Source: Filomicrobium sp.
GTDB taxonomy: Bacteria > Pseudomonadota > Alphaproteobacteria > Rhizobiales > Hyphomicrobiaceae
Assembly: GCA_017792465.1 (NCBI GenBank)
Contig: CP051234.1
Coordinates: 3,690,501-3,754,500, forward strand
Direction: 5' to 3'
Length of the DNA: 64,000 bases
Shown in pieces: positions 8,567 to 25,270 of the stretch; the first letter of the stretch is position 1, and each line of letters begins with the position of its first letter. A program made the translations under genes and the position numbers. The notes under the pieces were generated by a model. It searched no databases. It had not been told where the DNA came from and was given only the letters and a program-made list of their open reading frames with translations.

Positions 8567-8940
8567 GGTTTCCCGGCGACGGTGAATTTGAACTCGCCCT
8601 TCATGACGTGACCGTCAGAGCCGACACCGATCCACGCGACGTTGTAATCGCCGGGGACCAATGGCGGCACCGCGATATTGACCTGAGAAACGAACTTTGG
8701 CGGCAGCGATGATTTTGGAGAGACGGCTTCGCCTGAACCCGAGTTTGTGATTTTGAGCACAGTCAGGCGCATCTTGCCCGCGAAGTGTAACTCGATCTCA
8801 GAGAGCCCAGCAGCGACCGTCGCACCGTCCGCAGGAATGCTTTTGTTGACTTTCGTGTGGGCGTACGTGGTTTGGCCGAGGCTGGCTGCAAGCCCAAACA
8901 CGAGCATGGAGGCCGCGATCAGGATTTGAATTTTCTTCAT
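8563..8940 (-). CDS. copC: CopC-family periplasmic copper-binding protein
   Basis: 125 aa. Signal peptide, then mature protein beginning near AHTKVNKSIPADGATV, the usual CopC start that supplies an N-terminal His ligand. The conserved PGDYNVAWIGVGSDGHVMKGEFKF block with its DGH motif gives the second part of the Cu(II) site. CopC is a small beta-barrel copper carrier of the periplasm. It overlaps cusA upstream and copD downstream by 4 nt each. Confidence 0.9.
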   Translation of the reverse strand: MKKIQILIAASMLVFGLAASLGQTTYAHTKVNKSIPADGATVAAGLSEIELHFAGKMRLTVLKITNSGSGEAVSPKSSLPPKFVSQVNIAVPPLVPGDYNVAWIGVGSDGHVMKGEFKFTVAGKP

Positions 8941-11900
8941 GCGCTGACTTTCTGTGTGAGTTTGCCTTGGGGAACTGCGGCGGTTGTTGGTTCGCGAAAC
9001 CTCCGTCCCTCCCAGATGAGATAAACGACCGGGATGACGAAAAGTGTCAGGATCGTCGTGGACGCCATTCCGCCGAGCATGGGCAACGCGATCCGCCGCA
9101 TGACGTCGGAGCCTAAGCCTTCGGTGAAGAAGATCGGCGCGAGGCCTGCAACAATCGTCAAGACCGTCATCAGCTTAGGACGGACGCGCAAAGCGGCTCC
9201 CTTGATCACCGTTTCCTGCAGTTCAGCGAACGAGCGCGGGGGATGTTCGCGAACCTGCTGGTCGATATAGAGCAGCATCACGACTGCGGTCTCGACAGCA
9301 ATCCCGCCCAATGCGATGAAGCCGACGGCTACCGCGACCGACATATTGTATCCAGCAAGGTAGACCGCCCATAATCCGCCGATGAGGCCAAAGGGCAGCG
9401 ACAGCATGATTATCAGCGTGCGATCGAGCTTGCCGAAATGCAGCATCAAAAGGACGAAGATGGTGAGGACGACTGCGGGGATTGCGACTGTCAGCCTTTG
9501 GCGTGCCTCAAGCATCTGCTCGAATTGGCCTGACCAGGACACGGCATAGCTAGGTGGCAGATCGATGGATTGGGCGATGGCAGCCTGCGCATCAGCGACG
9601 TAGCTCCCGATGTCGCGGTCTGCGATGTCGACGAAGACCCAGCCGGTCAGCCGCGCATTTTCCGAACGTATCAGCGGCGGTCCGTCGACGTAGGCAATCT
9701 GGGCCAGCTCCGCCAGCGGGATATGCTGACCCGCCGGCGTTGGGATAAGGATTTCGCCGACCTGATCGGTGGTTTCGCGGAACGGGCGGTCGTAGCGCAG
9801 GATGATGTTGTAGCGCTCGCGCCCCTGCACGCTTTCTGCGAGCTTTTGTCCTCCCAATGCCGTCTGGATCACCGATTGGAAGACAGCCAGATCGATGTTG
9901 CGGCGTGCGAGCTCCCGGCGGTCGGGCCGGATTTCCATGTATTTTCCGCCTTGCACGCGGTCAGCAAACGCCGAACGGGTTCCGGGAACTTCCTTTGCGG
10001 CGGCTTCGATGGCCAGCGCGATGCGTTCGATAGTCGGGAGGTCGCTACCGGAGATCTTTATACCGATCGGCGTACGGATGCCGGTCGAGATCATGTCCAT
10101 GCGGATCTTGATCGGGTACCCCCATGAGTTGACGAGGCCCGGCAGCTTGGTGCGCTGGTCGAGTTCGGCAATGAGGTCCTTTTTCGTCAGGCCCGGCCGC
10201 CAGTCCTCTTGCGGCTTGAGCTTGATCCAGGTTTCGATCATCGAGATCGGTGCCGGATCAGTCGCCGTATCGGCACGGCCGAGCTTGCCGAAAACCCGGT
10301 CCACCTCCGGCACGGTGCCGATCAGTCTGTTGGTTTGCGCCAAGACCTCTTTCGCCTTGGTGATGGATACGCCCGGCAGCGTTGTCGGCATGTAGAGGAG
10401 TTCGCCCTCGTAGAGCGCCGGCATGAATTCGCTGCCTGTCTTTAAAAGTGGATAGGCAATGGAAGCAACGGCCGCAAGCGTCAGCGCAAGAATGAGCCAG
10501 CGCGTTTTCATTGCCAGCCGCAGGAGCGGCCGGTAGGCGGAAACAAAGAGCCAGTTAAGCGGGTTTTTCATCTCCTCGATGAGCCGCCCGCGCACGAGCC
10601 AGAGCATCAATACCGGAACGAGCGTCACTGACAGCAACGCCGCAAACGCCATCGCATAGGTCTTCGTAAATGCTAGCGGCGCGAACAGCCGGTAGCTTTG
10701 TCCGGTGAGCGCAAAAACGGGCAGGAACGAAACCGTGATGATGAGGAGCGAAAAAAAGAGGCCTGGGCCGACTTCCTTCGCCGCTTGAATGATTGCCGCG
10801 CGCCGCTCTTCGGGGCCGAGGCCGTCTGGCATCGTCGATAGCTTGCGATGGGCGTTTTCGACCATAACGATGGAGGCATCGACCATGGCGCCGATGGCAA
10901 TGGCAATGCCGCCAAGAGACATGATGTTGGCCGTCACGCCCTGCTCGGCCATGACGATGAACGCGGCGAACACGCCAAGAGGCAAGGTGATGATCGCCAC
11001 GAAGGCAGAGCGAACGTGGAGCAGGAACACGAAGCACACCAAGGCGACGACGATGCCCTCCTCGATGAGTTTCCATGTCAGATATTCGACGGCGCCGTTG
11101 ATCAGCGGCGAGCGGTCGTAGACGGTAACAATTTGCACGCCTTCAGGCAGACCGGCTTGAAGAGATGCGATTTTCTTTTTGACCCCTTCGATGACGTTGA
11201 GCGCATTTTCACCGGAGCGCATGACGATAATGCCGCCAACGACTTCGCCTTCGCCGCCAAGTTCGACAACGCCACGGCGCAGTTCGGGGCCCTCAACAAC
11301 GTTGGCGACATCGGTTAGCAACACCGGTGTGCCGCCCGCCGAATAGACGACGACATCCTTCAACTGCTCCAAGTTCTGGATGTATCCGGTCGAACGAATG
11401 ATGAGTTCGGTTTCAGCCTGCTCGATCACCCGGCCGCCGACTTCACTTGATGCGGCTTTGACGGCTTCCCGGATGCGGGACAGCGGCACGTTGTAAGCGC
11501 GAAGCCGGTTCGGATCGACGAGAACCTGATACTCTTTGACGAAGCCCCCGACAGACGCGACTTCCGAAACCCCGTGCACGGTGGCGAGTTCGAATTTCAA
11601 GAACCAATCCTGCAGCGAGCGCAGTTGCGCCAGATCCCGTTTGCCGGTGTGATCGACGAGGGCGTATTGATAGATCCAGCCGACCCCTGTCGCGTCCGGC
11701 CCGAGTTGCGGGTTTGCGTTTGCCGGCAGCGAGCCCGAGGCCGACGACAGAGCTTCGATTACGCGGGAGCGCGCCCAATATTGATCGACGCCATCTTCGA
11801 AGATCACGTAAACGAAACTGGTGCCAAAGAGGGAGAACCCGCGGACGGCCTTGGTGCGTGGCAGCCCGAGCAGTTTCGTCGACAACGGATAGGTGACGAG

Positions 11901-12137
11901 GTCCTCGACAATCTGCGGCGACTGCCCGGCAAACTCGGTTCTGATGATGACTTGCGTGTCGGTCAGATCGGGAATGGCATCGAGCGGCGTCTTCTTGATC
12001 GCAAGCCAGCCCATGAGGATGAGAGCCAGCGCGCCGACGAGAACCAAAAGCTGGTTTCTCACCGACCAATCGATGACGCCAGCAACGGCTGACTTTTGGG
12101 GATCGTGCCCGGTGAAATCGTTTGCTGAATTAGACAT
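8937..12137 (-). CDS. cusA: Heavy-metal efflux RND transporter, CusA/CzcA family
   Basis: 1066 aa, the normal length for heavy-metal RND pumps. The N-terminal TM1 is followed by KKTPLDAIPDLTDTQVIIRTEF, a CusA/CzcA signature, and by GLPRTKAVRGFSLFGTSFVYVIFEDG. Two large periplasmic loops and two TM bundles follow; TM4 carries GGIAIAIGAMVDASIVMVENAH, with the Asp/Glu used in proton coupling. It drives metal export from the periplasm with the CusB-like adaptor encoded just upstream. Context with CopC, CopD and CusF points to copper or silver as substrate. No outer-membrane factor is encoded nearby. Confidence 0.92.
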   Translation of the reverse strand: MSNSANDFTGHDPQKSAVAGVIDWSVRNQLLVLVGALALILMGWLAIKKTPLDAIPDLTDTQVIIRTEFAGQSPQIVEDLVTYPLSTKLLGLPRTKAVRGFSLFGTSFVYVIFEDGVDQYWARSRVIEALSSASGSLPANANPQLGPDATGVGWIYQYALVDHTGKRDLAQLRSLQDWFLKFELATVHGVSEVASVGGFVKEYQVLVDPNRLRAYNVPLSRIREAVKAASSEVGGRVIEQAETELIIRSTGYIQNLEQLKDVVVYSAGGTPVLLTDVANVVEGPELRRGVVELGGEGEVVGGIIVMRSGENALNVIEGVKKKIASLQAGLPEGVQIVTVYDRSPLINGAVEYLTWKLIEEGIVVALVCFVFLLHVRSAFVAIITLPLGVFAAFIVMAEQGVTANIMSLGGIAIAIGAMVDASIVMVENAHRKLSTMPDGLGPEERRAAIIQAAKEVGPGLFFSLLIITVSFLPVFALTGQSYRLFAPLAFTKTYAMAFAALLSVTLVPVLMLWLVRGRLIEEMKNPLNWLFVSAYRPLLRLAMKTRWLILALTLAAVASIAYPLLKTGSEFMPALYEGELLYMPTTLPGVSITKAKEVLAQTNRLIGTVPEVDRVFGKLGRADTATDPAPISMIETWIKLKPQEDWRPGLTKKDLIAELDQRTKLPGLVNSWGYPIKIRMDMISTGIRTPIGIKISGSDLPTIERIALAIEAAAKEVPGTRSAFADRVQGGKYMEIRPDRRELARRNIDLAVFQSVIQTALGGQKLAESVQGRERYNIILRYDRPFRETTDQVGEILIPTPAGQHIPLAELAQIAYVDGPPLIRSENARLTGWVFVDIADRDIGSYVADAQAAIAQSIDLPPSYAVSWSGQFEQMLEARQRLTVAIPAVVLTIFVLLMLHFGKLDRTLIIMLSLPFGLIGGLWAVYLAGYNMSVAVAVGFIALGGIAVETAVVMLLYIDQQVREHPPRSFAELQETVIKGAALRVRPKLMTVLTIVAGLAPIFFTEGLGSDVMRRIALPMLGGMASTTILTLFVIPVVYLIWEGRRFREPTTAAVPQGKLTQKVSA

Positions 12138-12167
12138 AGCTGCGCCTCCGATGCGCGTTGGCGCGTG

Positions 12168-13961
12168 CTAGTGATGGTGACCTGGCATTCCGGCACCTGC
12201 GTTGGCCGGCCGCTCGGCATCGGGCTGGGCGGCATGTGGTGCTCCGGCATCGGGCGGACCCGATGCAGCAGATGCTTTCGCGGGCGATGTCTCGGGCAGT
12301 TGGATCTGGGATGAGGCTCCTTTGCCGTATGGATTGAGGGGGCGGCCTTGCGTCTGGAACCACATGCGGCCGGAGGCCTGGTCCTTGAAAACAGAGAGCT
12401 TCTTTTCTCGATAATGCTGAGGTGCACCGTCGTGAACCCATGGCTCCAATGCTGCAACAAGCTCGGCCAGCGCGGCCTGCGTTTCGCTCTCTGTCCGGCT
12501 TGCCTGGGCCTTGCGGATGGCACTCACGGCATCGTCCATGATGAAGGCGAGCTTGGTGCGCTGGAAGGCTGGCCACAACAGCGTCTTCACTTCGATGGCC
12601 GGGTCGAGAAACTTCGGCTCGATCTCATAGCCGTCGATCAGCGCCTCGTGCAGATAGAGAGCGGCATCGACGAAATGATCGACCATTGCGAACTGCGATT
12701 TATCGAGTTGGAGAAGTGATAACGGCAGTTGCAGGCGTTCGAGCTTACGGAAACTCTCTCGCAAGGCGCTTTCTGAATCGATCAGGAACTGGCCGGATAC
12801 GACGATTTCGTCACCGGACTTGATCTCACCGGAGACCTCTGTCCAGCGGCCCGAGATCAGACCCGTCTTGACTGCTCGCGGCTCGAAGCGTCCGCCGCCA
12901 AGGGAAGCGACAACATAGCGTCCGGCTCCGCTCTTCAGAATGGCTTCTGAGGGAACGGCGAGGCGCTGCTGGCTGCCAACCTCGAAGGCGACGTCGGCAT
13001 AGGCGCCAGGCCGAAGCTGTCCGTCTTTGTTATCGAGCACCAAGCGCACCTGCCCGGTCCGGGTTTTTGCGTCAACCGTCGGGTAAACGTATTCGACGCG
13101 CGCGACGACCGTTCGGCCTGGAATGTTCGGGAAGGTGACGCGCGCCGGCGTTCCAGGTTCGATGAAAGTGAGATCCTTTTCCGAAACGCTGACCATCAGC
13201 CAGACCTGGGAATAGTCCTGGATGCGGGTTAGCATCGTCCCGCGCTTCACATAACTGCCGGGGCGCAGTTCGATCATTGCTACGGTCCCGGTTCTATCGG
13301 CGTAGAAAGGCACGAATTCCATTTCTTTGCCGCGCTCTTCCAACTCGCCAATGGCGCGCTCCTGCATGCCGAAGGCTTTCAGCCGGGTTTTGATGGAGCT
13401 TATGCGAGTCCGGTTGGCGCCCTTCAATGCATCGAGGTAATCGCGCTGCGAGACGATGAATTCGGGCGCGTACATGGTGAAGAGCAGATCGCCTTCCTTG
13501 ACCTGATCCCCAACCGCGCGGATGCGCAGATCCTCGATCCAGGCTTCGGTACGCGCCGACATTTCCGTTTGCATCCGCTCGTTCTCAGCCACCAGTCCGA
13601 AGCTGCGGATGATGCGGCCGAAACTGGTTTGTTCGGCCTTTGCGATGCGAACGCCCATGGTCTGCAGAGTCTCGGGAGCGACGACAATGGCGGTGCGCTC
13701 TTGGCCCGCGGATGAGGCATTTGAGTCGCCGCCGGTTTCGAGCTTTACGAGGTCCATTCCGCAGATTGGACACACGCCGGCTTCGTCGGCGATGTAATGG
13801 GGATGCATCGGGCACGTCCACTTGAGGTTGCCCTTTTTGCTGTCGGCTGGACTGGAGGAATTGGGCGCATCTGCCGCGTGCGCAGGACCATGGCTGCTGA
13901 GGGGCAGCAAGAGGCAGAGCAGGCCTGCCAGTATCAGGAAGTGCTTCATCTTAAGACCCAT
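12168..13961 (-). CDS. cusB: CusB-like RND periplasmic adaptor with heavy-metal-binding domain
   Basis: 597 aa from the ATG at 13961, or four residues less from 13949; the open frame reaches 14114 but would overlap the upstream gene. A signal sequence (MKHFLILAGLLCLLLPLSSHG) is followed by a metal-binding module CPMHPHYIADEAGVCPICGMDL, then the membrane-fusion core with lipoyl-like and beta-barrel parts (SYVKRGTMLTRIQDYSQVWLMVSV, RPGAYADVAFEV). After about residue 420 there is an extra helical domain seen in some copper adaptors, ending in a His-rich tail (GMPGHHH). It links the CusA-like pump to an outer-membrane channel. There is a 30-nt gap to cusA. Confidence 0.88.
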   Translation of the reverse strand: MGLKMKHFLILAGLLCLLLPLSSHGPAHAADAPNSSSPADSKKGNLKWTCPMHPHYIADEAGVCPICGMDLVKLETGGDSNASSAGQERTAIVVAPETLQTMGVRIAKAEQTSFGRIIRSFGLVAENERMQTEMSARTEAWIEDLRIRAVGDQVKEGDLLFTMYAPEFIVSQRDYLDALKGANRTRISSIKTRLKAFGMQERAIGELEERGKEMEFVPFYADRTGTVAMIELRPGSYVKRGTMLTRIQDYSQVWLMVSVSEKDLTFIEPGTPARVTFPNIPGRTVVARVEYVYPTVDAKTRTGQVRLVLDNKDGQLRPGAYADVAFEVGSQQRLAVPSEAILKSGAGRYVVASLGGGRFEPRAVKTGLISGRWTEVSGEIKSGDEIVVSGQFLIDSESALRESFRKLERLQLPLSLLQLDKSQFAMVDHFVDAALYLHEALIDGYEIEPKFLDPAIEVKTLLWPAFQRTKLAFIMDDAVSAIRKAQASRTESETQAALAELVAALEPWVHDGAPQHYREKKLSVFKDQASGRMWFQTQGRPLNPYGKGASSQIQLPETSPAKASAASGPPDAGAPHAAQPDAERPANAGAGMPGHHH

Positions 13962-14053
13962 GAAGATATCGGAATTCCGCGCGCAAGCGCAGTGACGCGA
14001 CCGCAATTCGCCCACTGCCGGGCGACGGTCGCTCAATCGATCTTCAAAGGGAT

Positions 14054-14518
14054 TTAGATGCGCAGGCGGGCATTGCGCGCGACAAGGCGTGCCGCGCCAC
14101 TTGCCGATGTCCAACTCTGTTCAGGTGGCCCGGTTGGCCAATAGGCCGGGATCTCTGCACGCAAGGCGTTAATCGTATCAGCGTGTAGCCCATATCGGAC
14201 GGGAACGGCAACCTGCTTCGGCGGCAAATCGTTCGAAGCTAATTTTGGAACGATCTTTTGAGAAACCAGCTCAAGGCATGTGGCGATGCAGGCCGCAACC
14301 GGGTTGCCCGGGGTGTGTGCCACGCCATGGTGGGCGGGCCGGTTTGCTGTTTGCTCCGCAGTAAGATGAGCATGGTGCGGACTAGCGGGCGCTGTTGAAA
14401 CCAGAGCCGGTGCGTCGAGTTTCAGCGTTGGCGCATTCGCAAAATAGCCAGCTGCAACGCTCATCCAGGCAAGGACGGCGCAGCAAACGTATCCAACGAT
14501 GGATCGCGATGGCATCAT
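14054..14518 (-). CDS. His-rich membrane-anchored/secreted protein, first gene of copper operon
   Basis: 154 aa; a hydrophobic N-terminus (about residues 8-26) is followed by a His-rich stretch HHAHLTAEQTANRPAHHGVAH and a Cys pair in CIATCLEL. This resembles small DUF2946/CopL-like proteins often found with copper-resistance genes, but the match is by pattern only. It lies about 90 nt upstream of the cusB-like start and directly behind the MerR-type promoter, so it is the leading gene of the operon. A role in periplasmic copper binding or sensing is inferred. Confidence 0.55.
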   Translation of the reverse strand: MMPSRSIVGYVCCAVLAWMSVAAGYFANAPTLKLDAPALVSTAPASPHHAHLTAEQTANRPAHHGVAHTPGNPVAACIATCLELVSQKIVPKLASNDLPPKQVAVPVRYGLHADTINALRAEIPAYWPTGPPEQSWTSASGAARLVARNARLRI

Positions 14519-14547
14519 GCGGGCTCGGCTTTCTCCATAGCTTGTAA

Positions 14548-14578
14548 ACTAGATGACCCCGATGGTGCGATGGGTCAA
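14548..14578 (-). promoter_or_regulatory. MerR-type promoter of the copper operon (19-bp spacer)
   Basis: On the minus strand, TTGACC (14578-14573) and TCTAGT (14553-14548) are separated by exactly 19 bp, the over-long spacing used by MerR/CueR-family activators. The spacer region carries a dyad, TGACCC (14554-14559) with GGGTCA (14572-14577). Predicted transcription would start about 20-25 nt before the His-rich gene. No MerR-family gene is in the window. Confidence 0.5.
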
Positions 14579-14778
14579 GTGGAATTGAAGTCACAGGCGC
14601 CACGTTTACGTTACCCGACCGCGCTGCTTCTGTCAGCGAGGGCAGGGAGTGGGGCCGCTTACCGCTTCGTCGCGACTGTATTGCGGGCAGGAGATCGGAG
14701 GAGGCGGGTTTCCCCAGCTGCATCGATTGATCGTGAGGTGGGCGCCATTAATTGCAGTCATGCATCAATGTTTGATAC

Positions 14779-15225
14779 TTATTTGCGAACCTCGTTGAAC
14801 CAGAGCGCGCAGCGGTATTTGTAAGTAATCTCCTCGCCCGCCGCGATGTCGTTGAGGGCGTAAAGTTCGGCGATCCAGCCGCATGACCCACCGTCCAGAA
14901 AACGGACATGCGCGTTGGGCCGATCTGCGTGGTTACAAAGACTGGGCAGTCCCAGGACCATGAGGCCTGCCTCCTTGGAACGCGGGTGCTCGAAATAAAA
15001 ATCTCCAAGCGGCTGCATGGCGTCCAAGGCCTTGGCTTGGTCTTGCGAGATGTCGACCGTGCAAGCGCGCTCGATGATTTCACCGCCTGCAATGGGGGCT
15101 GCCGCAAACAGTCCGCGACCGCGGCCGGGGGACGTGCCTGGAACGGCTTTGATGGTGCGCACGCCCCAATCCAGGATTTCTGGTCTGTCGTTCTGATTGG
15201 AAGGCTTTCCTAGAAACTCGGTCAT
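14779..15225 (-). CDS. SET-domain protein, last gene of the kamA operon
   Basis: 148 aa from the ATG at 15225, two bases after the stop of the HDAC fusion gene; longer open frame upstream is overlap only. SET-domain signatures are present in order: GRGLFAAAPIAGGEII, SLCNHADRPNAHVRF (the NHxxxPN S-adenosylmethionine/pseudoknot motif) and AAGEEITYKYR (like the GEELxxDY motif). SET proteins methylate lysine side chains using SAM. In this operon, next to a lysine 2,3-aminomutase and acyl/deacyl domains, a small-molecule or peptide amine is a plausible target, but this is inference. No post-SET Cys cluster is seen. Confidence 0.8.
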   Translation of the reverse strand: MTEFLGKPSNQNDRPEILDWGVRTIKAVPGTSPGRGRGLFAAAPIAGGEIIERACTVDISQDQAKALDAMQPLGDFYFEHPRSKEAGLMVLGLPSLCNHADRPNAHVRFLDGGSCGWIAELYALNDIAAGEEITYKYRCALWFNEVRK

Positions 15226-15227
15226 CG

Positions 15228-17498
15228 TCAAAGACTCTTTACGTAGATGATCTTGTTGTCGCCGGAGCGATAGAAGTCGGGAAGCTCCGCGACCTTGCGG
15301 AAGCCGGTCCGCTTGTAGAACGCGCGCGTTGGCGCGTAGCTTTCTTGGGATGAAGTATCGACGTAGACGTGCTTGCCACCGGCCTGCCGGATCGCCTCCT
15401 CGGATTTGGCAAGAAGCTGACGGCCTATGCCGTGGCCCTGCGTATCGACGCCGACGACGATCCAATAAAGATCGAACGAGGTATCGGTCGCTGGTGTCGG
15501 ACCGTAACAGGCATACCCGATAGTCCGGTCGTCCATTTGCGCGAGGATGAACTCGTAACCGGAGGCCCGGCCTTTGGCGATGCGCTCTTCGACGAGTTCG
15601 ACGGCGATGCCGGTCTCGGCGGCCGTGAACTTATCGGTCGAAGCGACAAGAGTGCGGATCGCTTCGATGTCGGTTGTCGTCACCGTGTCGATGAACGTGA
15701 GGGGGACCGGTGCTCCCTTTTTGGCTTTCGTTTTTCGTTCAGAAGGTTTGCGCTGGGGCGGGCCGGCTTCGGCCATGCCGGCAGCCAGTCCGTTGAAGAA
15801 ATTGCGGGCGTTGGTGCCAAGCGTACGAATGCGGTAGCCGCCTTCCTGGATGACGACCGTCGGGATGCCTGCCGCACCGATCATGTGGCCGAGCTTGACG
15901 AAGTCAGCGGCCTCGTTCGACCAGGTGCCGGTCGGATCAGCTTTGGCGGTATCGAAGCCCATCGACACGACAAGAAAGCTGGGATCGTGACGGGCGATGC
16001 GCACCAGAGCCTGGGCAACCGCGGCGCGGTGCTCTTCCGGTGAGATTTGCTCATCAAGCGCAAGGTTGACGTTGAAGCCAGCCCCGCGGCCTCGGCCCCG
16101 CTCATCGGGAAAGCCGGTGAAATAGGGATAGGCAAAACTCGGGTGGCCGTGGACGGAGACGGTCAGCACATCGTCGCGCTCATAGAAGATGTCTTGCTGG
16201 CCGTTGCCGTGGTGATAGTCGATATCGAGAATTGCGACTTTGCCCTGTCGCGAGAGGTAATGCGCGGCAATCGCCGAATTGCAAAAGTAGCAGAAGCCGC
16301 CGAATGTGCGGTGCTCTGCGTGGTGGCCGGGCGGGCGCACCAAGGCATAGGCAAGCGGCCGGCCTTTGAGGACTTCGTCGGCTGCCGTCAGCGCACAATC
16401 GACCGCGTGACGGGCGGCTGGATAAGCGTTGCGGTTGATTGGGGTGAACGTGTCGATGCACCAGTAGCCGGAAAGGACGCTACGCTCCTTGGGCTGGCGC
16501 GTGGCGTTTCGAACCGGGAACACATAAGGGTAAACCGATTTCTTTTCGGGCGCCTCCGAGCAGGCCTGCTTGATGTATTCGACGAGGCCGCCGTCGTGGA
16601 CCTCCCTGATGAAGCGGTCGGGGAAGTCGCGTGCCGGCATCGCCTCGAACAAATCGGTCTTGAGGATTTCGCGCTCGATGGCCGCCACGCGGACTGGCGC
16701 CTCGACGTAGCCGCGCTCGCGGATGTGGTGGATCGAGTGGCGGTCGTTGACGATGAGCGCAATCGGCTTTTCGAGTTTCGGCTTGATGCGCTTGGGTTGC
16801 AGCTTGTCGGAGTAGCGCGGCTCGCGCAGGAAATAGCGCCCGGTCTTAACCGACGCGGTGACCTCGTCGATATAGCCCGGCGGACAGATCTCGGCATACT
16901 TGCGCTCCAGAATTGCCTGCACAATCGTCGAGAGCGATTTCGCTGAAGGGAGTTTGAATTTTCCCAGCCCGTCGAAGACCAGGTAGGGGCTATCGGTGTC
17001 GCCGTCCTTGACCGGTGTTTCGTAGGCCGTTCCCATGATTGGACGGGCGCCGTAGCGCTCATAGAACTTGAGGCGCTGGGCGTTTTGGCGGCGGATCTTT
17101 GGATCGGGACTGAGGCGCGGATCGTCCGGCAGGCATTCGTAGTAGAGCCCTTTCGCGCCAAGCTGCAGAGCTTCCTCGCGCACGACCTGATAGAGGTGCG
17201 CGCCAAGGCCACCGCCAGTGCGACCCGGGGCAGCCGAGATCGTTTCCAGGTAGGCGAAGTTCAGATCGGGCACGTTGAGCAGGATGGCAAAGGCTTTGAC
17301 CTGGCCTTTGGAGTCCTCGCTTACCAGTAGCTCGGTCACGAAGCGGTACTTCAGAGGATCGGTGAGTTGCTCGGGAAGCTTGGCGACATCGGCTTCGGCC
17401 ATCAGCGGGAATTGCGCGCGCATGATGGCTTGGACTTCTTCGAGTGTGGCTTCATCCGTTTTTGTACTGCTACCGCGCAGGCGGCGGATCTTGATCAT
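15228..17498 (-). CDS. GNAT - histone-deacetylase-family - GNAT fusion protein
   Basis: 756 aa, three domains. An N-terminal GNAT-like acetyltransferase (about 1-175; APGRTGGGLGAHLYQ is the acetyl-CoA loop), a central HDAC/acetylpolyamine amidohydrolase domain (about 225-575) with RPPGHHAEHRTFGGFCYFCN and the zinc-site DIDYHHGNGQQD plus SMGFDTAKADPTG, a Lys-rich linker, and a C-terminal GNAT domain (about 605-756; VDTQGHGIGRQLL, FYKRTGF). The catalytic His pair and Zn ligands are intact, so both acetylation and deacetylation activities are expected. Its start overlaps the preceding ATP-grasp stop by one base (TGATG). Bacterial members of this HDAC family act on acetylated small amines, so a diamine or beta-lysine type substrate fits the kamA context. 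Confidence 0.85.
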   Translation of the reverse strand: MIKIRRLRGSSTKTDEATLEEVQAIMRAQFPLMAEADVAKLPEQLTDPLKYRFVTELLVSEDSKGQVKAFAILLNVPDLNFAYLETISAAPGRTGGGLGAHLYQVVREEALQLGAKGLYYECLPDDPRLSPDPKIRRQNAQRLKFYERYGARPIMGTAYETPVKDGDTDSPYLVFDGLGKFKLPSAKSLSTIVQAILERKYAEICPPGYIDEVTASVKTGRYFLREPRYSDKLQPKRIKPKLEKPIALIVNDRHSIHHIRERGYVEAPVRVAAIEREILKTDLFEAMPARDFPDRFIREVHDGGLVEYIKQACSEAPEKKSVYPYVFPVRNATRQPKERSVLSGYWCIDTFTPINRNAYPAARHAVDCALTAADEVLKGRPLAYALVRPPGHHAEHRTFGGFCYFCNSAIAAHYLSRQGKVAILDIDYHHGNGQQDIFYERDDVLTVSVHGHPSFAYPYFTGFPDERGRGRGAGFNVNLALDEQISPEEHRAAVAQALVRIARHDPSFLVVSMGFDTAKADPTGTWSNEAADFVKLGHMIGAAGIPTVVIQEGGYRIRTLGTNARNFFNGLAAGMAEAGPPQRKPSERKTKAKKGAPVPLTFIDTVTTTDIEAIRTLVASTDKFTAAETGIAVELVEERIAKGRASGYEFILAQMDDRTIGYACYGPTPATDTSFDLYWIVVGVDTQGHGIGRQLLAKSEEAIRQAGGKHVYVDTSSQESYAPTRAFYKRTGFRKVAELPDFYRSGDNKIIYVKSL

Positions 17499-18478
17499 CA
17501 GGCCATGACTTTCGAATTCTGGACTGCGACATCGACAATTGAGGAAATGATGTCGTCGTAGGTGAGCCCGGCTTCGGCTGCCGCGGCGGCAAAGCCGGCA
17601 TCGGGGGCAAGGCAGGGGTTTGCATTGGCTTCGAGAACATAGACCTTGCCGTTGTCTCCGACCCTGAAATCGACGCGGGCATAGCCGGACAAGCCGAGGG
17701 CGTGCCAGGTGGCGAGGCTCAGTTCGCGGATTTCATCGGCGAGGTTGGGTTCCATGCGTTCAAGGCCGAAGCGGCGCACCATGTCATGATAGGAGGGGGC
17801 CGCTGCATCCCACTTGGCGGCAAAATCGACGATGGGACGTGTGCTTTCCGGGAGTCTGGAAAAGTCGATTTCGGCAATGGGAAGGACACCGGGACCAGCC
17901 CGCGTCTCGATAACCGAAACGTTGAACTCGCGCCCGGCGATATACTCTTCGGCAAAGAATCGGCCGCCGAATTCAGCTTCGCGGCGGGCGATTTCGGATT
18001 TCGCTTCGCGGCCGGTGACAACAGAGCCCTCATCCATGCCGAGCGAGCCATGCTCGTCGATGGATTTGACGATCACTGTCTCGGTGGCAGGCACCATCTC
18101 ACCGGCGAACCAAAATTCCGGAGTGGTAATGCCGTCGTTGGCCAGAAGCTCCTTAGTCGAGATTTTGCTGTTGGCGACGACGTAAGCAGATCCGCTGGCG
18201 CCTGTCGTGACGAGACCAAGCTCTTCCAGTCGGATCGGAGCTTCTTCTGCTCTGGCAGCTTTTCCGCCAAGCGCCTCGACGAGGTTGAAAACTGCATAAG
18301 GTTTGCGTGCCGGCAACTGGTCGAGGGCCGTCAGGCCGGGCCGAACGGTCAGAATTTCGGTCGCAAAGCCGAGGTGCGACAACGACCGGGCCACCGCCTT
18401 AGCGGTGTCGATCGTATCCTGCTCGTCGGGGCGGTCGAGTGCCGCCCCGTGGATCACGGGCACAAAGAGAGCTGTCAT
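17498..18478 (-). CDS. ATP-grasp ligase (D-Ala-D-Ala ligase-like), second copy
   Basis: 326 aa. It has the ATP-grasp layout of D-Ala-D-Ala ligase relatives: an N-terminal domain with FNLVEALGGKA, a central ETVIVKSIDEHGSLGMDEGSVV phosphate-binding region, EEYIAGREFNVSVIE, and the metal-binding C-terminus YARVDFRVGDNGKVYVLEANANPCL. Such enzymes join a carboxylate to an amine with ATP. It follows the first ATP-grasp gene after 6 nt and overlaps the HDAC fusion. Together the two ligases imply formation of at least two amide or peptide bonds. Not likely to be the cell-wall Ddl, given its place in this operon. Confidence 0.8.
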   Translation of the reverse strand: MTALFVPVIHGAALDRPDEQDTIDTAKAVARSLSHLGFATEILTVRPGLTALDQLPARKPYAVFNLVEALGGKAARAEEAPIRLEELGLVTTGASGSAYVVANSKISTKELLANDGITTPEFWFAGEMVPATETVIVKSIDEHGSLGMDEGSVVTGREAKSEIARREAEFGGRFFAEEYIAGREFNVSVIETRAGPGVLPIAEIDFSRLPESTRPIVDFAAKWDAAAPSYHDMVRRFGLERMEPNLADEIRELSLATWHALGLSGYARVDFRVGDNGKVYVLEANANPCLAPDAGFAAAAAEAGLTYDDIISSIVDVAVQNSKVMA

Positions 18479-18484
18479 TCCGCT

Positions 18485-19531
18485 TCATGCAACCTCGCGG
18501 ACCTTGGGTGCGCAGCAGGTGCAGGCGTGCGTGACGGGCTCTTGGCCGCCAACAATTACGCCCTGACGGTGTGCAGCCGAGGCGATGATTTCGGCAATCA
18601 GGTTGTCATAGCCAAGGCCTGCCAGCTCCGCGATGATCGGGAGGTCGGAGTGCGTCGGGTGCAGCCCTGCAATCGGATTGGCCTCCAGGAAATGAGGAAG
18701 GCCGTTTGCATCCGACTTGAGATCGAGGCGAGCCGCATCACGGCAGTCAAGGGCGCGATAGGCCTGCAAAGCGATCGCGCCTGCGCGGCGCGCCTCCGCG
18801 TCGTCGGCCAGCGTGTAGACGACGGTCTCCTCGCAAGCTTCCTTGTTCTCGTAGGAGTAGACCGGATCTTCGGCACCTTCGCGCACCGTGATCTCAGCGA
18901 TCCCGATAATGCGGGCAGTGTCGCCGGTGCCCAGGATGCCGACCGTGAACTCGCGGCCGGGCAGGTAGGTCTCCGCCAGCACAGGCTGAGCGAAGCGCTC
19001 GATGAGGCGGGCGGCCGACTGGCGCAGGTCGTCCTTGTTCATGACGATGGACGCGGCGTCGCATCCCTTTCCGGTGCCTTCGGCAACCGGCTTGACGAAC
19101 AGCGGGTAATCAAGCGTAGCCGCATCGGCTTCTTCGGCCGAGCGCAGTTGCGCAAAGGTTGCCGTCGGCACGCCATGAGCCATGACGATCTGTTTGGCGA
19201 CCGATTTATCAAGAGTTGCGGCCATCGTCAGCGGATCGGAGAACGCGTAGGGCTGCTCGAAGAGTTCGCAAACAGCCGGAACTTGGGCTTCTCGAGAACG
19301 GCCTTTTAGTCCCTCGGCGATCGAGAAGACGAGATCGAAACGCTCGCCGGCGGCAAGACGGCGAGCAAGGTTCTGGCCGCGGCCGACGCGGTCGACATCG
19401 TGGCCGAGGTGGACGAGCGCCGCTTCGATTTCGTCGATCGTGGCCGGAGAGTCGAACTCGGCGACTTCCAGTTCGGAATAGCCTGCAGCCAGATATTCTT
19501 CGCGCAGGTCATAGACAAAGCCGATACGCAT
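18485..19531 (-). CDS. ATP-grasp ligase (D-Ala-D-Ala ligase-like), first copy
   Basis: 348 aa from the ATG at 19531, five bases after the kamA stop codon; in-frame ATGs further upstream lie inside kamA. ATP-grasp features: FDLVFSIAEGLKGRSREAQVPAVCE, YPLFVKPVAEGTGKGC, AETYLPGREFTVGILG and the C-terminal ARLDLKSDANGLPHFLEANPIAGL. It ends in a short Cys-containing tail (THACTCCAP). Sequence differs clearly from the second ATP-grasp protein, so they probably use different substrates in sequence. Predicted to ligate an amino-acid-like product of KamA. Confidence 0.8.
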   Translation of the reverse strand: MRIGFVYDLREEYLAAGYSELEVAEFDSPATIDEIEAALVHLGHDVDRVGRGQNLARRLAAGERFDLVFSIAEGLKGRSREAQVPAVCELFEQPYAFSDPLTMAATLDKSVAKQIVMAHGVPTATFAQLRSAEEADAATLDYPLFVKPVAEGTGKGCDAASIVMNKDDLRQSAARLIERFAQPVLAETYLPGREFTVGILGTGDTARIIGIAEITVREGAEDPVYSYENKEACEETVVYTLADDAEARRAGAIALQAYRALDCRDAARLDLKSDANGLPHFLEANPIAGLHPTHSDLPIIAELAGLGYDNLIAEIIASAAHRQGVIVGGQEPVTHACTCCAPKVREVA

Positions 19532-19535
19532 GGCG

Positions 19536-20945
19536 TCAGCCCTCCACGAAAGCCGGAGCGGTCGGTACGGCGGAGGCCAGGGCTGCAACAGCGCCAGGCT
19601 TGCCGGAACCGACCGTTCCGCCGGGATCGTTGTAGCGGTAGACACCGCCTTCGAAGTTGCGAAGGAGGAGGTCATCGCCATCGCGCCCGACGACGTACTC
19701 AGGCAGCAGCGGGATCTTTCCGCCGCCGCCAGGGGCGTCGATGACGTACTGGGGCACGGCGTAGCCTGTCGTGTGGCCGCGCAGGCCTTCGATGATCTCG
19801 ATGCCCTTGTCGACAGGGGTGCGGAACTGGGCCGAACCGGTGATCGGATCGCACTGGTAGAGGTAGTAGGGTTTTACGCGACGCATCAGGAGCCCGTGCA
19901 TCACGGACTTCATCGTTTCGACGTTGTCGTTGATGCCCTTGAGGAGCACCGTCTGGCTGCCGAGCGGGATGCCAGCGTCGGCAAGCCGGGTGACGGCCTG
20001 CGTCATTTCCGGCGTCAGCTCGGAAGGATGCGTGACATGGATGCTCATCCACAGCGGATGATGCTTCCTGAGCATGCGCACCAGGGAACGCGTCACGCGC
20101 ATCGGGAGCACGACCGGCACCTTCGTGCCGATGCGGATGAACTCGACATGGCGGATCGCCCGCAGGCGGCCGAGCAGGTAGTCGAGCCGGTCGTCCGACA
20201 AGGTCAGTGGGTCGCCGCCCGAGATCAGCACGTCGCGGATTTCGGTATGCGCCTCGATGTACTGGAGCGCTTTCTCCCACTGCGACTTGGAGAACGAATA
20301 GTCGCCGCCGGTCTCGCCGACCATGCGGGAACGGGTGCAATAGCGGCAGTACGTGGAGCAGAAGCCGGTCGCCAGGAATAGGACCCGGTCGGGGTAGCGG
20401 TGGACGAGGCCGGGGACGGCGGCGTCGTGGTCTTCGCCTAAGGGATCGTCGGCCTCACCGGGTGTGCGGATGTACTCCTGGCCCACCGGGATATGGGTGC
20501 GGCGCAGGCCGTCTTCCGGGTTATCCCGATCAAGAAGGCTGGCGTAGTACGGCGTAATGCCGACCGGCAGCGATCCGTTGTGGCGGACGACGGCGTCGCG
20601 CTCATCGTCTGACAGGCGGAAAATTCGCTCAAGCTCGGCAAGCGATTTGATGCGCGTGCGCAGCTGCCAGCGCCAGTCGTTCCAATCGCTGCTGGAGACT
20701 CGCGGGTAGAATTTCTTCTGGAACTGGCGGGCACCGGGGCCGACAGGGAAGCGCTCGCGGCGGGCTTCGGCGATTGGCACAACCTTGGCCGCCGGGTCCG
20801 TCGAAATGACGCCCGGTCCGCGTGGGCGAAGAGCCCGTTGGAGAATGTCGGTTTTGGTCGGGGTCGAGGACGGGCAGGCCGTCTCGATACTTGGAGGTTC
20901 CTCAATCTCGGGCGAGGTCATCTGCGTGTCGCAGGTTGTCCGCAT
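19536..20945 (-). CDS. kamA: Lysine 2,3-aminomutase-family radical SAM enzyme
   Basis: Radical SAM/PLP enzyme that converts L-lysine to beta-lysine in characterised members. The cluster motif CSTYCRYC sits near residue 200, preceded by RVLFLATGF; LISGGDPLTL, RIGTKVPVVLPMRV and the C-terminal PLYLYQCD-like stretch KPYYLYQCDP and YVIDAPGGGGKIPL are typical of KamA, including the PLP-binding region. The start at 20945 (469 aa) has GGAG about 10 nt upstream; an ATG at 21056 in the same frame lacks a proper site, and 20921 is also possible. It leads the five-gene operon. EF-P-modifying EpmB is shorter and lacks this long N-terminus, so a standalone aminomutase role is favoured. Confidence 0.85.
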   Translation of the reverse strand: MRTTCDTQMTSPEIEEPPSIETACPSSTPTKTDILQRALRPRGPGVISTDPAAKVVPIAEARRERFPVGPGARQFQKKFYPRVSSSDWNDWRWQLRTRIKSLAELERIFRLSDDERDAVVRHNGSLPVGITPYYASLLDRDNPEDGLRRTHIPVGQEYIRTPGEADDPLGEDHDAAVPGLVHRYPDRVLFLATGFCSTYCRYCTRSRMVGETGGDYSFSKSQWEKALQYIEAHTEIRDVLISGGDPLTLSDDRLDYLLGRLRAIRHVEFIRIGTKVPVVLPMRVTRSLVRMLRKHHPLWMSIHVTHPSELTPEMTQAVTRLADAGIPLGSQTVLLKGINDNVETMKSVMHGLLMRRVKPYYLYQCDPITGSAQFRTPVDKGIEIIEGLRGHTTGYAVPQYVIDAPGGGGKIPLLPEYVVGRDGDDLLLRNFEGGVYRYNDPGGTVGSGKPGAVAALASAVPTAPAFVEG

Positions 20946-21573
20946 CGGACATTTGCTCCGGTTTTTGGATAAAGGATTGCCACGCACGTCTGAGGCGGCA
21001 AACTCACCCTCATCCCCCGATTGGACCGTCGTGCGACTAGCCGCCGTTCCTGACATCCCAAACCGGGTGCGATCGCATATGCGATGTCGCGGGTGAATCG
21101 CAAGAGGAATTCTTTAGTCGGCGCAAAAAATTGTTCGGAGGTCCTGCCCGGCCGGCGGCCGGCCAGATTGTCGGCGTGTCGCTCGGATCATGTTGACGCC
21201 GGTGAGGGGTCCCCCCCCTGCCCCCTGATCGGCCAGTTCGCCCAGTCGGGGGGGACCGTTTTGAAGGCAAATGCGTCGAGAATGCGCCAGGCGGTCGCAA
21301 CGGGAGAGCCATCCGAGGCCTGGGAAAGCCGGACGATCACCCGTTCAGTCCGTGACTTTGGTGTTGAGCAGGGCGGTAACGAGAGCGGGCCCGTATAGCG
21401 TTGACCCGCCAATGTCCTTCGCATAATGAAGTCGGACACAGCATGTCACCGCAGCGAGTAATTATGGAACAGCCAAGACGCCGCCCGGGAGCGGGTGCTG
21501 GAACTGCGCGGGCTCTGCACGGGCGCGAAACACAAGGCGCTGCCGTCGACCTCACCAACGCGTGCGCCGTTAG
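20946..21573. other. Divergent intergenic region between kamA and the acyltransferase gene
   Basis: It holds the predicted kamA upstream region, the 14-bp palindrome and a GC-rich stem-loop: GGTCCCCCCC (21208-21217) pairs with GGGGGGGACC (21248-21257) and is followed by GTTTTG on the plus strand. No gene precedes that stem on the plus strand, so it may belong to a leader or a small transcript. No convincing coding sequence was seen here. Confidence 0.4.
21072..21085. promoter_or_regulatory. 14-bp palindrome upstream of kamA
   Basis: ATCGCATATGCGAT is a perfect palindrome about 127 nt before the chosen kamA start and just outside the longest possible open frame. It may be an operator, but no second copy was found in the window. 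Confidence 0.3.
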
Positions 21574-23679
21574 ATGACTTCTCTCGATACAGCCACCGGC
21601 CTGGGCACTGCCACGAGCTCTCGCTATTTTCCGTTTATCGACGGATTGCGGTGCCTGGCCGTCTGCGCGGTGATCGCCCATCACTTCTATCCGCATCTCA
21701 TGGCGAGCGGCTACCTGGGCGTTGATATCTTCTTCGTCATTTCCGGCTTCGTCATTACGCAATCGCTGCTGACGCACAAGACCTCGTCGATCGGCGGCTA
21801 TTTCCTGGGGTTCTATACGCGACGGATCAAGCGTCTGGCGCCGGCGCTGGTTGTATGCGTGGCGGTCACGTGTTTACTGATTGCGTTCTTTAATCCTGAA
21901 CCTCAGCGGCATATCAAGACCGGGTTATTCTCGCTCATCGGTGTCTCGAACTGGTCGCTTTATTTCGACGAACTCGACTACTGGGGACAGTCGGCGCGGT
22001 TCAATCCCTTCACGCATACCTGGTCGTTGGGCGTCGAAGAACAGTTCTATTTCCTGTTTCCCGCCGTCTTGTGGCTGACGGTCTTTATGCGCGCGTCAAA
22101 GCGTTTGGGTTTGGCGATAATCGCCATTGCCGGCGCCTGTTTCGTCTCCTTGGCGGCGTATATCTATTTCCATGAAAGCGCGCGGTCGGCGGTGCATTAC
22201 CTGCCGCAGTTCCGGGTCTGGCAGCTTGGCCTTGGAGCACTCGCCGCGCTTTACGTGGCGTCTAGAGACTTCGCGCAGATCCGGGCGTTGGCCGCGGCGC
22301 CGAGCGTTCTGCTTCTTGGCGTCATCGTGCTTTGTTTGTTTGCGCCCGATAATCTTGCGCTTTGGGCGACGGTGGTCGCAACGTTTGCCACCACGCTTCT
22401 CATTTTAAAGGGCGTTGCCGGCGGCGGTGTCACGTCGATCTTGGAGCAGTCTGCGGTCCAATACATCGGGCGCATCTCGTATTCGCTCTACCTGTGGCAC
22501 TGGCCGGTGATCGTCATCAGCCTTTGGACCATCGGCATCCATCTTTGGTCGCTGCCGCTGCAGCTTCTTTTGATCTTCGCGCTGGGGGCCGGCTCTTATC
22601 ATTTTATCGAACGGCCGCTACGGCATGCGCCGTGGACGCCGAAGAATTTGTCGTTGCGAACCCGTCTTGCAGTTGGAGCGGTGGCGGCGGCGTTGGTGAT
22701 CGTGGTCGCAGACAGCTCGTCGGCCAAGTGGCTCTATCTGGGCAGCAGCGAGCAAGGCACCGCAAAGCAGTCTGCGCCGCACGTTAGCGCGAAATACTGC
22801 CCGGGAGGCGACGCCGACGCGCAAGCGGACGGCAAGAAGAAGCGCGCCATCCGGGCCATCGGCAACTCGCATGCCTACCATATTCTGCCGGCCTTGCGAC
22901 GGATCGCGGAGGACTGCAATTTCCGCCTGTTGCATACCGAGCAGAGCGATAAGATCATTTATCCGCGCGGCGTGGGTGTGGCTCCCAACAAGGTCAGAGC
23001 CGCTCTCGCCGACCTCGGGAAGGGCGACATTCTCATCGTATCGAGCCTGTTCCGGCTTCTCTACCAACAGCCCTATCTCAATTCGCGCGGCGACCATTGG
23101 AACGATCACAGCGCCGTCAAGAAGGCGAAGGGCTATGGTCTCGACAACTGGTTGAAAGAGTTCGACGACATTCTGGCGAAGACCAAGAAACGCGGGATAT
23201 CCGTGGTGCTCTTTTTGCCCAACGTAACGTTCAATTCCGCGAGCACGAGCGTGCCGTTCGAGCTTTGCCTGAAAGAGTGGTTTCGTATCCCAAGCGATTC
23301 TTGCGGAGAGATGGTCGAGAGGGCCTATCTCGACGAACGATTCCCAAAGCGTTGGTATGAAGAGCTGCGGGCGCGGGAGCAGCGGTTGCAGCATTTGCAC
23401 CTGTTCGATCCGATGCCGACTTATTGTCCGGGGAAAGACCGTTGCTCGCGCATCGTCGCCAATACCATTGCCTTCCGCGACACCAACCATTTAACCGAGG
23501 CCGGGGCGCTCTTGATGATCGAACCGCTCAGCCGGTTCCTATGGGAAAGTGGTTTGTTATCCGATGAGGCAAATCAGGCGTCGAACGTCGATGTTGGGAC
23601 TTCCCGGCGGGCCGAAAAGTTGAACTCTGAAGCGAAGGCACCAGCTTCGGCAAAGGCAGATGATTCAGCGGCGCAGTAG
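21574..23679 (+). CDS. OafA/YrhL-type acyltransferase with C-terminal SGNH domain
   Basis: 701 aa. The N-terminal acyltransferase-3 membrane domain (about residues 15-380, some ten TM helices) has FIDGLRCLAVCAVIAHHF, GYLGVDIFFVISGFVIT and RRIKRLAPAL, the usual active-site and membrane motifs. The C-terminal domain is SGNH-like: RAIGNSHAYHILPAL has the GNS(H) block and FRDTNHLTEAGALLM the DxxH catalytic pair. Such proteins O-acetylate surface polysaccharides, passing the acyl group across the inner membrane. No clear Shine-Dalgarno is seen before the ATG. No polysaccharide genes adjoin, so the target is unknown. Confidence 0.85.
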   Translation: MTSLDTATGLGTATSSRYFPFIDGLRCLAVCAVIAHHFYPHLMASGYLGVDIFFVISGFVITQSLLTHKTSSIGGYFLGFYTRRIKRLAPALVVCVAVTCLLIAFFNPEPQRHIKTGLFSLIGVSNWSLYFDELDYWGQSARFNPFTHTWSLGVEEQFYFLFPAVLWLTVFMRASKRLGLAIIAIAGACFVSLAAYIYFHESARSAVHYLPQFRVWQLGLGALAALYVASRDFAQIRALAAAPSVLLLGVIVLCLFAPDNLALWATVVATFATTLLILKGVAGGGVTSILEQSAVQYIGRISYSLYLWHWPVIVISLWTIGIHLWSLPLQLLLIFALGAGSYHFIERPLRHAPWTPKNLSLRTRLAVGAVAAALVIVVADSSSAKWLYLGSSEQGTAKQSAPHVSAKYCPGGDADAQADGKKKRAIRAIGNSHAYHILPALRRIAEDCNFRLLHTEQSDKIIYPRGVGVAPNKVRAALADLGKGDILIVSSLFRLLYQQPYLNSRGDHWNDHSAVKKAKGYGLDNWLKEFDDILAKTKKRGISVVLFLPNVTFNSASTSVPFELCLKEWFRIPSDSCGEMVERAYLDERFPKRWYEELRAREQRLQHLHLFDPMPTYCPGKDRCSRIVANTIAFRDTNHLTEAGALLMIEPLSRFLWESGLLSDEANQASNVDVGTSRRAEKLNSEAKAPASAKADDSAAQ

Positions 23680-23783
23680 CTCCGTCGATATCTCCTATCG
23701 AGCCCGGATAAAATTCCTTAGCGTCGGCGGGCGACGGATCTGAAGGATTTAACGGCCGACTCCCGGAACGTGTCGCCACGCGT

Positions 23784-23798
23784 CGGGCATTATGCCCG
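23784..23798. promoter_or_regulatory. Palindromic operator candidate, copy 1 (CGGGCATTATGCCCG)
   Basis: Perfect inverted repeat with arms CGGGCA/TGCCCG, extended by one more base pair here. It lies 71 nt before the histidine kinase start. The identical 15-mer occurs again at 25944-25958, before the TolQ-like operon. Confidence 0.6.
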
Positions 23799-23869
23799 AA
23801 ATGGTCGTGAACTGCTTCTCCTTGCGGTGAGCCTATGGCAGATTGCGCCAACTTGCCAGGAGAACCCCT

Positions 23870-25270
23870 ATGCGCCTTTTGACAGCCCTCGTCTTGAGAT
23901 TGATGTTTGTCGTCTTGTTCTGCCTGAGCTTGACGGTCGTCTGGATATTGCTGAGCACGCACCACAGTATCGATGCTGCGGCGACGCAATCGGCGCAGCG
24001 TGTGGAAGCGCAATTGCGCGGAATCTATTGGCAGCAGCTGTTGTGGCGCAACGGCCTCGACAGAACTTCGCTGCTGCCGATGCCGAATTGGCGGACGTTG
24101 GAAACGCAAAGCCTCATCGCTCCAGGCATCTGTGTCGCGTTCACGCCACCGGCGGGCGACAAGAGCACGATGTGCAGTCAGACCCAGTCTCTGGGTGCCG
24201 CACCACCGGAATGGTTCACACTCGGCTACAGCGCAATTTTCGGCGGTCATGCAACTCATGAAGCGTTCCTGTCGGTTCGGGAAAAGACGGTCGGCTCGAT
24301 CCATACTTACGCGGATGCCGATGCCGCCATGCGCATCGCCTGGGCGCAGGTGTCATCCATCGTCGCCATTGCCAGCATGCTGGCGCTTGGGATCGGCTTC
24401 CTTGCCGCGCTGATGATCGGACAGGTGTTGCTGCCGGCGCAGACGATCATTGGTGTGCTGCACCAGCTTGAGGCGGGCAACCTGTCGCAACGCGTTCCGC
24501 CCATACGAAGTGCTGCATTCAATACGATTGCGGGTGCTGTAAACGACCTGGGCGAGAACCTGCAGCACTCGCGCGACGAGAGCCGCAGGTTGACCGCTCG
24601 GCTGTTGGAAATTCAAGAAGAGGAGCGCCGGGCGATTGCGCGGGATCTACACGACGAGTTCGGTCAATCTCTGACTGCGACATCGGCCTTGGCTGCGTTG
24701 ATCGAAGCGAATGCCGCACCCGATAGAGATGAGATCGCCGCAGATGCCCGCGCCATCTCCCGCATCCAAAAAGACATGATGGAAACACTGCGATCGACCC
24801 TGGTTCGCCTCAGATCGCAAAGCATCGAGGAGGTCGGTCTGGAAGCCAACCTGCGCCAACTGGTTGCCGACTACAATACACAAAGCAGCGCGAAGGCTGT
24901 CTATCGTCTCGATATCTCGGGCGGGCTTGCGACGCTTCATCAACGTGTCTGTGTCGATCTCTACCGCATCGTTCAGGAATGCCTGACCAACGCCACGCGG
25001 CACGGTGCGCCGAATGAGGTTCGGGTGAGCGTCGCGCACATCGACAACGATGACGCGCATATTGCCTTGGTCGTCGAGGACGATGGCGGCGGCGACGTCA
25101 GGACCTTCAAGAATTCTGGCGGCTACGGCCTGCAAGGCATCCGCGAGAGGATCGCTGCACTTGGCGGATCCTTGGCGATTGGCAACGTGGCGCGCGGTGT
25201 GCGTGTCAGCGCGAAGATTCCATTGAGCGCCGTGGCACCGATCGGACCGGTTGCTGGAGCGCCCGCTTGA
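23870..25270 (+). CDS. Membrane histidine kinase, HAMP + HisKA_3/HATPase type
   Basis: 466 aa from the ATG at 23870, which has CCAGGAGA upstream (23857-23864); the in-frame start at 23843 has none. TM1 (about 5-28) and TM2 (about 155-185) enclose a 120-residue periplasmic sensor part with a Cys pair (GICVAF, TMCSQT). A HAMP domain follows, then the NarL-class phosphoacceptor box AIARDLHDEFGQS with His at about residue 261, an N-box ECLTNATRHG and a G-box GYGLQGIRERI. It resembles MoxY-like kinases but sits with its own regulator and an envelope operon. The response regulator gene overlaps its stop codon. Confidence 0.85.
   Translation: MRLLTALVLRLMFVVLFCLSLTVVWILLSTHHSIDAAATQSAQRVEAQLRGIYWQQLLWRNGLDRTSLLPMPNWRTLETQSLIAPGICVAFTPPAGDKSTMCSQTQSLGAAPPEWFTLGYSAIFGGHATHEAFLSVREKTVGSIHTYADADAAMRIAWAQVSSIVAIASMLALGIGFLAALMIGQVLLPAQTIIGVLHQLEAGNLSQRVPPIRSAAFNTIAGAVNDLGENLQHSRDESRRLTARLLEIQEEERRAIARDLHDEFGQSLTATSALAALIEANAAPDRDEIAADARAISRIQKDMMETLRSTLVRLRSQSIEEVGLEANLRQLVADYNTQSSAKAVYRLDISGGLATLHQRVCVDLYRIVQECLTNATRHGAPNEVRVSVAHIDNDDAHIALVVEDDGGGDVRTFKNSGGYGLQGIRERIAALGGSLAIGNVARGVRVSAKIPLSAVAPIGPVAGAPA

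Follow-up and report, generated by a model that had tools for sequence, protein, structure and literature searches.

A recurrent gene cassette of a lysine 2,3-aminomutase-family enzyme, two ATP-grasp ligases and a GNAT-HDAC-GNAT protein that may make a small beta-lysine compound

Beta-amino acids lend themselves to a solute role since proteins make no use of them, according to an excerpt of PMC1224877, which also presents N-epsilon-acetyl-beta-lysine and a doubly masked, acetylated glutamine dipeptide amide as osmolytes; in excerpts of PMC3543383 and PMC9720073, N-epsilon-acetyl-beta-lysine is inferred from lysine aminomutase genes. The ablA/ablB pathway combines a lysine 2,3-aminomutase with an acetyltransferase and yields a small soluble product. 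The N-acetylglutaminylglutamine amide pathway relies on a GNAT acetyltransferase plus an ATP-grasp ligase, which give an acetylated dipeptide solute. Here, we describe a gene cassette from Filomicrobium sp. that resembles both pathways. Compared with ablA/ablB, the cassette adds two ATP-grasp ligases and a deacetylase, and its KamA falls below the AblA cut-off and is tied more tightly to ligase 1 than to any GNAT. Unlike the N-acetylglutaminylglutamine amide pathway, it would start from beta-lysine, its ligases are Ddl-like, and no amidotransferase was seen.

The cassette lies in a 64,000-nucleotide stretch that was analyzed as a whole (the window; positions 3690501-3754500 of a 4.47 Mb single-contig genome). 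Its genes and their downstream neighbor, in window coordinates, are:

19536-20945, minus strand: KamA-family radical SAM enzyme, probable L-lysine 2,3-aminomutase (469 aa, ATG start)
18485-19531, minus strand: ATP-grasp ligase 1, D-Ala-D-Ala-ligase-like (348 aa, ATG start)
17498-18478, minus strand: ATP-grasp ligase 2, diverged relative of ligase 1 (326 aa, ATG start)
15228-17498, minus strand: GNAT-HDAC-GNAT protein (756 aa, ATG start)
14779-15225, minus strand: small SET-domain protein, downstream neighbor (148 aa, ATG start; Pfam SET 43 bits)

An earlier note on this DNA had described five minus-strand genes with gaps of -1 to 6 nt, and we found all five reading frames open, with ATG starts and that spacing: 4 nt between KamA and ligase 1, 6 nt between the two ligases, a 1-nt overlap of ligase 2 with the GNAT-HDAC-GNAT gene, and 2 nt before SET. 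KamA has an alternative in-frame ATG at 21056, which may be its true start. The families assigned in that note agree with the Pfam domains (LAM_C, Radical_SAM, Dala_Dala_lig_C, Hist_deacetyl, Acetyltransf_1 and SET). Downstream on the same strand (window 8937-14114) are two genes named from their translations only, one CusB-like and the other a large, CusA-like efflux gene of RND type; upstream and divergent (21574-23679) is an acyltransferase-3/SGNH membrane protein of the kind typical of surface polysaccharide O-acetylation. No RNA family reached its gathering score in window 12000-24000.

We scanned one-genome-per-species contigs with the GNAT-HDAC-GNAT protein, confirmed at least 589 relatives, and kept the best 80 as loci. 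These best GNAT-HDAC matches are largely MAG contigs and do not amount to 80 genomes, as two MAGs, Desulfobacterales Ww166 (L021/L025) and Desulfotignum Tobar13.5m-G22 (L026/L029), hold the cassette twice and account for two loci apiece. The closest relative among the best 80 of at least 589 was L001, from the same genus, with 86% identity in the three-domain protein; L008 and L016 are labeled Hyphomicrobiaceae, the host's own family. All modules (KamA, ligase 1, ligase 2, N-GNAT-HDAC and C-GNAT) occurred together at 51 of the 80 loci. The window's order (KamA, ligase 1, ligase 2, N-GNAT-HDAC-C-GNAT) was kept at 41/80 loci, two of them with SET next; the C-GNAT had moved ahead of N-GNAT-HDAC at eight, and two had the order N-GNAT-HDAC, ligase 1, ligase 2, C-GNAT, KamA. 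The other 29 loci were incomplete: two lacked only the C-GNAT, at a contig end; 11 held a partial cassette, some of them cut by a contig end; 15 carried N-GNAT-HDAC, with or without the C-GNAT, and no adjoining cassette; and one was a fragment. An arrangement that recurs at dozens of loci is far beyond chance, and the suspected conserved operon of a lysine 2,3-aminomutase, two ligases, GNAT and HDAC is borne out. Outside the cassette, no gene cluster was found at more than 13 of 80 loci; members drawn from two of the recurrent flank clusters were a histidine kinase and a GGDEF response regulator.

The SET gene fared differently. It adjoined the cassette at only 3/80 loci (L001, L005 and L009), and we therefore regard it as a neighbor rather than a conserved member; its proposed part in the pathway was dropped, and the same count ruled it out as a core component. 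Other genes at the loci were sporadic. In two loci (L039:6300-6923 and L060:6187-6720), KamA and ligase 1 are separated by the gene of a small protein that weakly matches CxxCxxCC (PF03692); an ORF of similar size at this place in L038 had no match, and the intervening genes are not conserved. ORFs of one cluster lie between the C-GNAT and N-GNAT-HDAC in L051 (4519-5166) and L055 (9504-10139), the latter copy being a MarC-family membrane protein. A contig labeled Nanoarchaeota, a bin label that may be wrong, carries N-GNAT-HDAC and, on the opposite strand, a distant KamA relative of 134 bits (L072:2251-6526).

We then compared the distance matrices of the modules across 45 loci plus the window. 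Those of KamA, ligase 1, ligase 2 and the C-GNAT correlated at 0.69-0.87, values that include shared species history, and the KamA-ligase 1 pair gave the highest, 0.87. The N-GNAT and HDAC correlated at 0.73 with each other and at 0.34-0.59 with the other modules.

The cassette KamA is a probable L-lysine 2,3-aminomutase, judging by its family matches and active-site positions. It scored 82 bits for Pfam LAM_C and 47 bits for Radical_SAM, and its best PDB match, and the sole one at E <= 0.001, was L-lysine 2,3-aminomutase 2a5h (445 bits). The three cluster cysteines (CxxxCxxC) and the counterparts of D293, D330 and K337 were present in 66/66 aligned KamA relatives; in the numbering of the C. 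subterminale enzyme, D293 and D330 are the two aspartates that hold the side chain of the substrate lysine, and K337 is the PLP lysine. The AblA model ranked first among NCBIfam models, yet at 475 bits the protein stayed below the 525.4 cut-off, and its relatives scored 392-499 bits against that model.

KamA relatives also act on EF-P, and proteins are frequent targets of the SET and HDAC families, so the genes might instead serve protein modification, either EF-P beta-lysylation or a protein methylation/acetylation with SET as a working part. The earlier note had named two outcomes that would overturn its reading: a gene order conserved in no other genome, or action of the KamA homologue on EF-P with independent expression of the other genes. 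Neither fits our results, since the order recurs and the host has another KamA (TIGR03822, 508 bits, above the cut-off) for this neighborhood: it begins inside the last part of a gene resembling GenX/EpmA, which scores 274 bits where the cut-off is 287, and a divergent EF-P gene lies nearby (L150:2133-5087, G000:C1:1070132-1073086). The cassette KamA has neither the score of an EpmB (249 bits, under the 369 cut-off) nor the company of EF-P and EpmA genes. With a separate KamA beside EpmA and EF-P, an EF-P role for the cassette enzyme is unlikely, and we rejected EF-P modification on this ground. Together with the rarity of SET next to the cassette and the small-molecule type of its ligases, these findings make protein modification in general highly improbable. 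As a side observation, the EpmA/EF-P neighborhood suggests that the TIGR03822 'hypothetical equivalog' family is an EpmB-type EF-P enzyme.

Both ligases have the ATP-grasp fold with the catalytic residues of Ddl, and in this they match D-Ala-D-Ala and other amino-acid ATP-grasp ligases. Dala_Dala_lig_C scored 96 bits for ligase 1 and 73 bits for ligase 2. When the AlphaFold model of ligase 1 (pLDDT 90.6) was searched with Foldseek, all 50 PDB matches listed were D-Ala-D-Ala or D-Ala-D-Lac ligases, and its catalytic positions were invariant across aligned relatives. The cassette ligases differ from D-Ala-D-Ala ligases in falling below the Ddl model cut-offs (best scores of 149 and 105 against a curated cut-off of 243 bits) and in having KamA as a partner gene. 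In the alignment, the HS pair close to the Ddl C-terminus, which binds the carboxylate of the second substrate, is kept in ligase 1 and lost in ligase 2, where a conserved N-x-N-P motif takes its place. Because the root and deepest forks of the ligase tree are weak, the tree does not establish that ligase 2 arose from ligase 1. The family search also returned ATP-grasp matches of about 180 bits; three were examined and, as they join a methyltransferase-like N-terminus to an ATP-grasp domain, are no cassette ligases. In relatives of the host family (L105-L118), ORFs of 650-719 aa contain a Ddl-like ATP-grasp domain, and the three examined open with a methyltransferase-like segment; they form a distinct, uncharacterized ligase family.

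The kinship of both ligases to Ddl raises the idea that they build a beta-lysyl unit, or beta-lysine itself, into peptidoglycan or a precursor. However, carrier genomes have additional Ddl-like matches of their own, wall genes do not accompany the cassette, and HDACs of acetylpolyamine type and GNATs would be unexpected there; we consider such a cell-wall modification very unlikely.

The three-domain protein consists of an N-terminal GNAT (about residues 1-200), an HDAC domain like acetylpolyamine amidohydrolases (about 265-571) and a C-terminal GNAT (about 600-756). Hist_deacetyl scored 238 bits, and Acetyltransf_1 matched at both ends. Among the 50 matches listed from a fold search with the whole protein, only the HDAC fold appeared, so it is Pfam that supports the N-GNAT fold. 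The HDAC is nearest to acetylpolyamine amidohydrolases, with 35-38% identity to solved structures of that group across the aligned stretch (38% to 3men), and shares their catalytic residues: H392, H393, D427, H429, D516 and Y555 were invariant in 30 sequences, and from HDAC motifs we take these to be the zinc ligands, the catalytic His-His pair and the Tyr. It differs from those enzymes in its fusion partners, an N-terminal GNAT and often a second GNAT at the C-terminus, and in its linkage to beta-lysine genes. The C-GNAT family profile matched PDB 2r7h at 186 bits, with the next best at 40. This solved structure, titled putative D-alanine N-acetyltransferase, appears to be a member of the C-GNAT family.

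Next, we followed the spread of the cassette. Six of 99 host-family genomes encode a ligase 1 scoring >= 466 bits, always next to KamA and ligase 2, and when the phylum was sampled evenly, ligase 1 was found at E <= 1e-80 in 12/397 genomes and 4/232 genera. The cassette is accessory and patchy. In a sample of 19 loci, the records were labeled with seven phyla, the labels being mostly those of MAGs. A plasmid collection gave 168 records for GNAT-HDAC-GNAT, none with >80% query coverage (the 30 listed matches fell in the HDAC region), and 38 for ligase 2, of which the 15 listed had 24-34% identity; two rhizobial plasmid regions that were examined held no cassette.

Where GNAT-HDAC had no adjoining cassette, we ran the ligase 1 profile over each entire genome (16 genomes, including those of the contig fragment L050 and of L058). 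In twelve, a ligase 1 accompanied by KamA was present at another site or on a different contig. Two (G003 and G004) had a weaker ligase-1 relative of 246-257 bits, with KamA absent from the 3-4 kb around it; G011 had just a 143-bit Ddl-like protein, and G012, of 0.7 Mb, gave no match to the profile. The converse set comprised the 11 carriers of the phylum sample other than the window's genome, from three genera. The three-domain protein at E <= 1e-75 was found in 0/11, at most two candidates per genome being scored among the matches listed, and profiles found N-GNAT-HDAC in none of these 11 KamA plus ligase 1 genomes: they matched C-GNATs (157-170 bits) and HDAC-only stretches (76-93 bits), and nothing in G148. 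Six (genus g132 and G136) had KamA, ligase 1, ligase 2 and the C-GNAT, which in G132 lies about 19 kb away. The remaining five (genus g139) had KamA and ligase 1, adjacent in three and separated by one ORF in two, without ligase 2 or the C-GNAT at the thresholds used. Two further genomes fit this nesting: G001 has the core with GNAT-HDAC-GNAT elsewhere in the genome, and G525 has ligase 1, ligase 2, the C-GNAT and an HDAC without an N-GNAT. Seen in three genera, the nesting likely reflects the order of pathway steps. The earlier suggestion that acetylation and deacetylation form a general protecting step found no support, since the deacetylase is an add-on and N-GNAT-HDAC was not found in any of the 11 other carriers sampled.

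These data also bear on a simpler scheme, a variant N-epsilon-acetyl-beta-lysine pathway in which KamA and one GNAT would make the solute, the HDAC would deacetylate it as salt falls, and the ligases would form a side product. KamA plus GNAT chemistry would resemble that of ablA/ablB as excerpted from PMC1224877 and PMC3543383, and the HDAC is kin to small-amine deacetylases. However, genomes that lack the GNAT keep ligase 1, the reverse of what the scheme predicts, KamA co-evolves most with ligase 1, and neither GNAT-HDAC-GNAT nor two separate C-GNATs had an AblB-type model among their NCBIfam matches. We regard this variant as unlikely.

Our preferred reading, held with moderate confidence, is that the cassette is self-contained and directs the synthesis of a small beta-lysine compound. 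The earlier note's small beta-lysine peptide is also the best reading here, with substrates, reaction order, chemistry, product and role that we infer from the families, gene order, nesting and conserved active sites seen in the sequences. KamA would convert L-lysine to beta-lysine. Ligase 1, using ATP, would activate a carboxylate and join beta-lysine and a second amino acid into a dipeptide, which would be the end product in genomes with KamA and ligase 1 only. Ligase 2 would add a further unit, and the C-terminal GNAT would acetylate a free amine. In some lineages only, N-GNAT-HDAC, with an HDAC that resembles acetyl-polyamine deacetylases, may then trim, swap or recycle an acetyl group on the product.

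Such a peptide could be secreted as an antibiotic, a siderophore-like or a signaling compound. Beta-lysine is present in secreted peptides such as the streptothricins, and a patchy spread (6/99 family and 12/397 phylum genomes) suits an accessory trait. The flanks of the 80 loci, however, have no common transporter, resistance gene or regulator, and carrier chain or NRPS genes are absent, which makes secretion rather improbable.

For the cassette product, an osmolyte is our leading guess. Many carrier names hint at marine or saline sources, such as Ruegeria sediminis and Rhodovulum marinum (names only, with no control set), and those of the SURF, DeMMO and Crystal Geyser type give no such hint. 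Ectoine synthase was found in 67/397 phylum genomes, in 0/12 cassette carriers among them and in 6/47 genomes drawn from the 80-locus set; these figures point to neither a clear enrichment nor a clear depletion, and with only four genera behind the 12 carriers, the comparison says little about salt adaptation. More tentatively, and short of the confidence we place in the cassette itself, the loci may represent an undescribed, widespread and mobile class of beta-lysine peptides that are built stepwise by Ddl-like ATP-grasp ligases instead of an NRPS, then N-acetylated, with a fused acetyltransferase-deacetylase editing them reversibly; they could be a new class of peptide osmolyte of marine and sediment bacteria.

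Within the open-licence PMC literature, judged by title and the start of the abstract, we found no paper describing the cassette. An excerpt of a survey of bacterial deacylases (PMC11532494) mentions no GNAT-HDAC fusion and does not contain the term ATP-grasp. Overall, our analyses predict a new small-molecule pathway with beta-lysine as its first intermediate, at loci labeled with seven phyla. The nested gene sets amount to natural knock-outs that hint at the order of its steps, and the pathway would offer a role for the numerous GNAT-HDAC fusions of bacteria.
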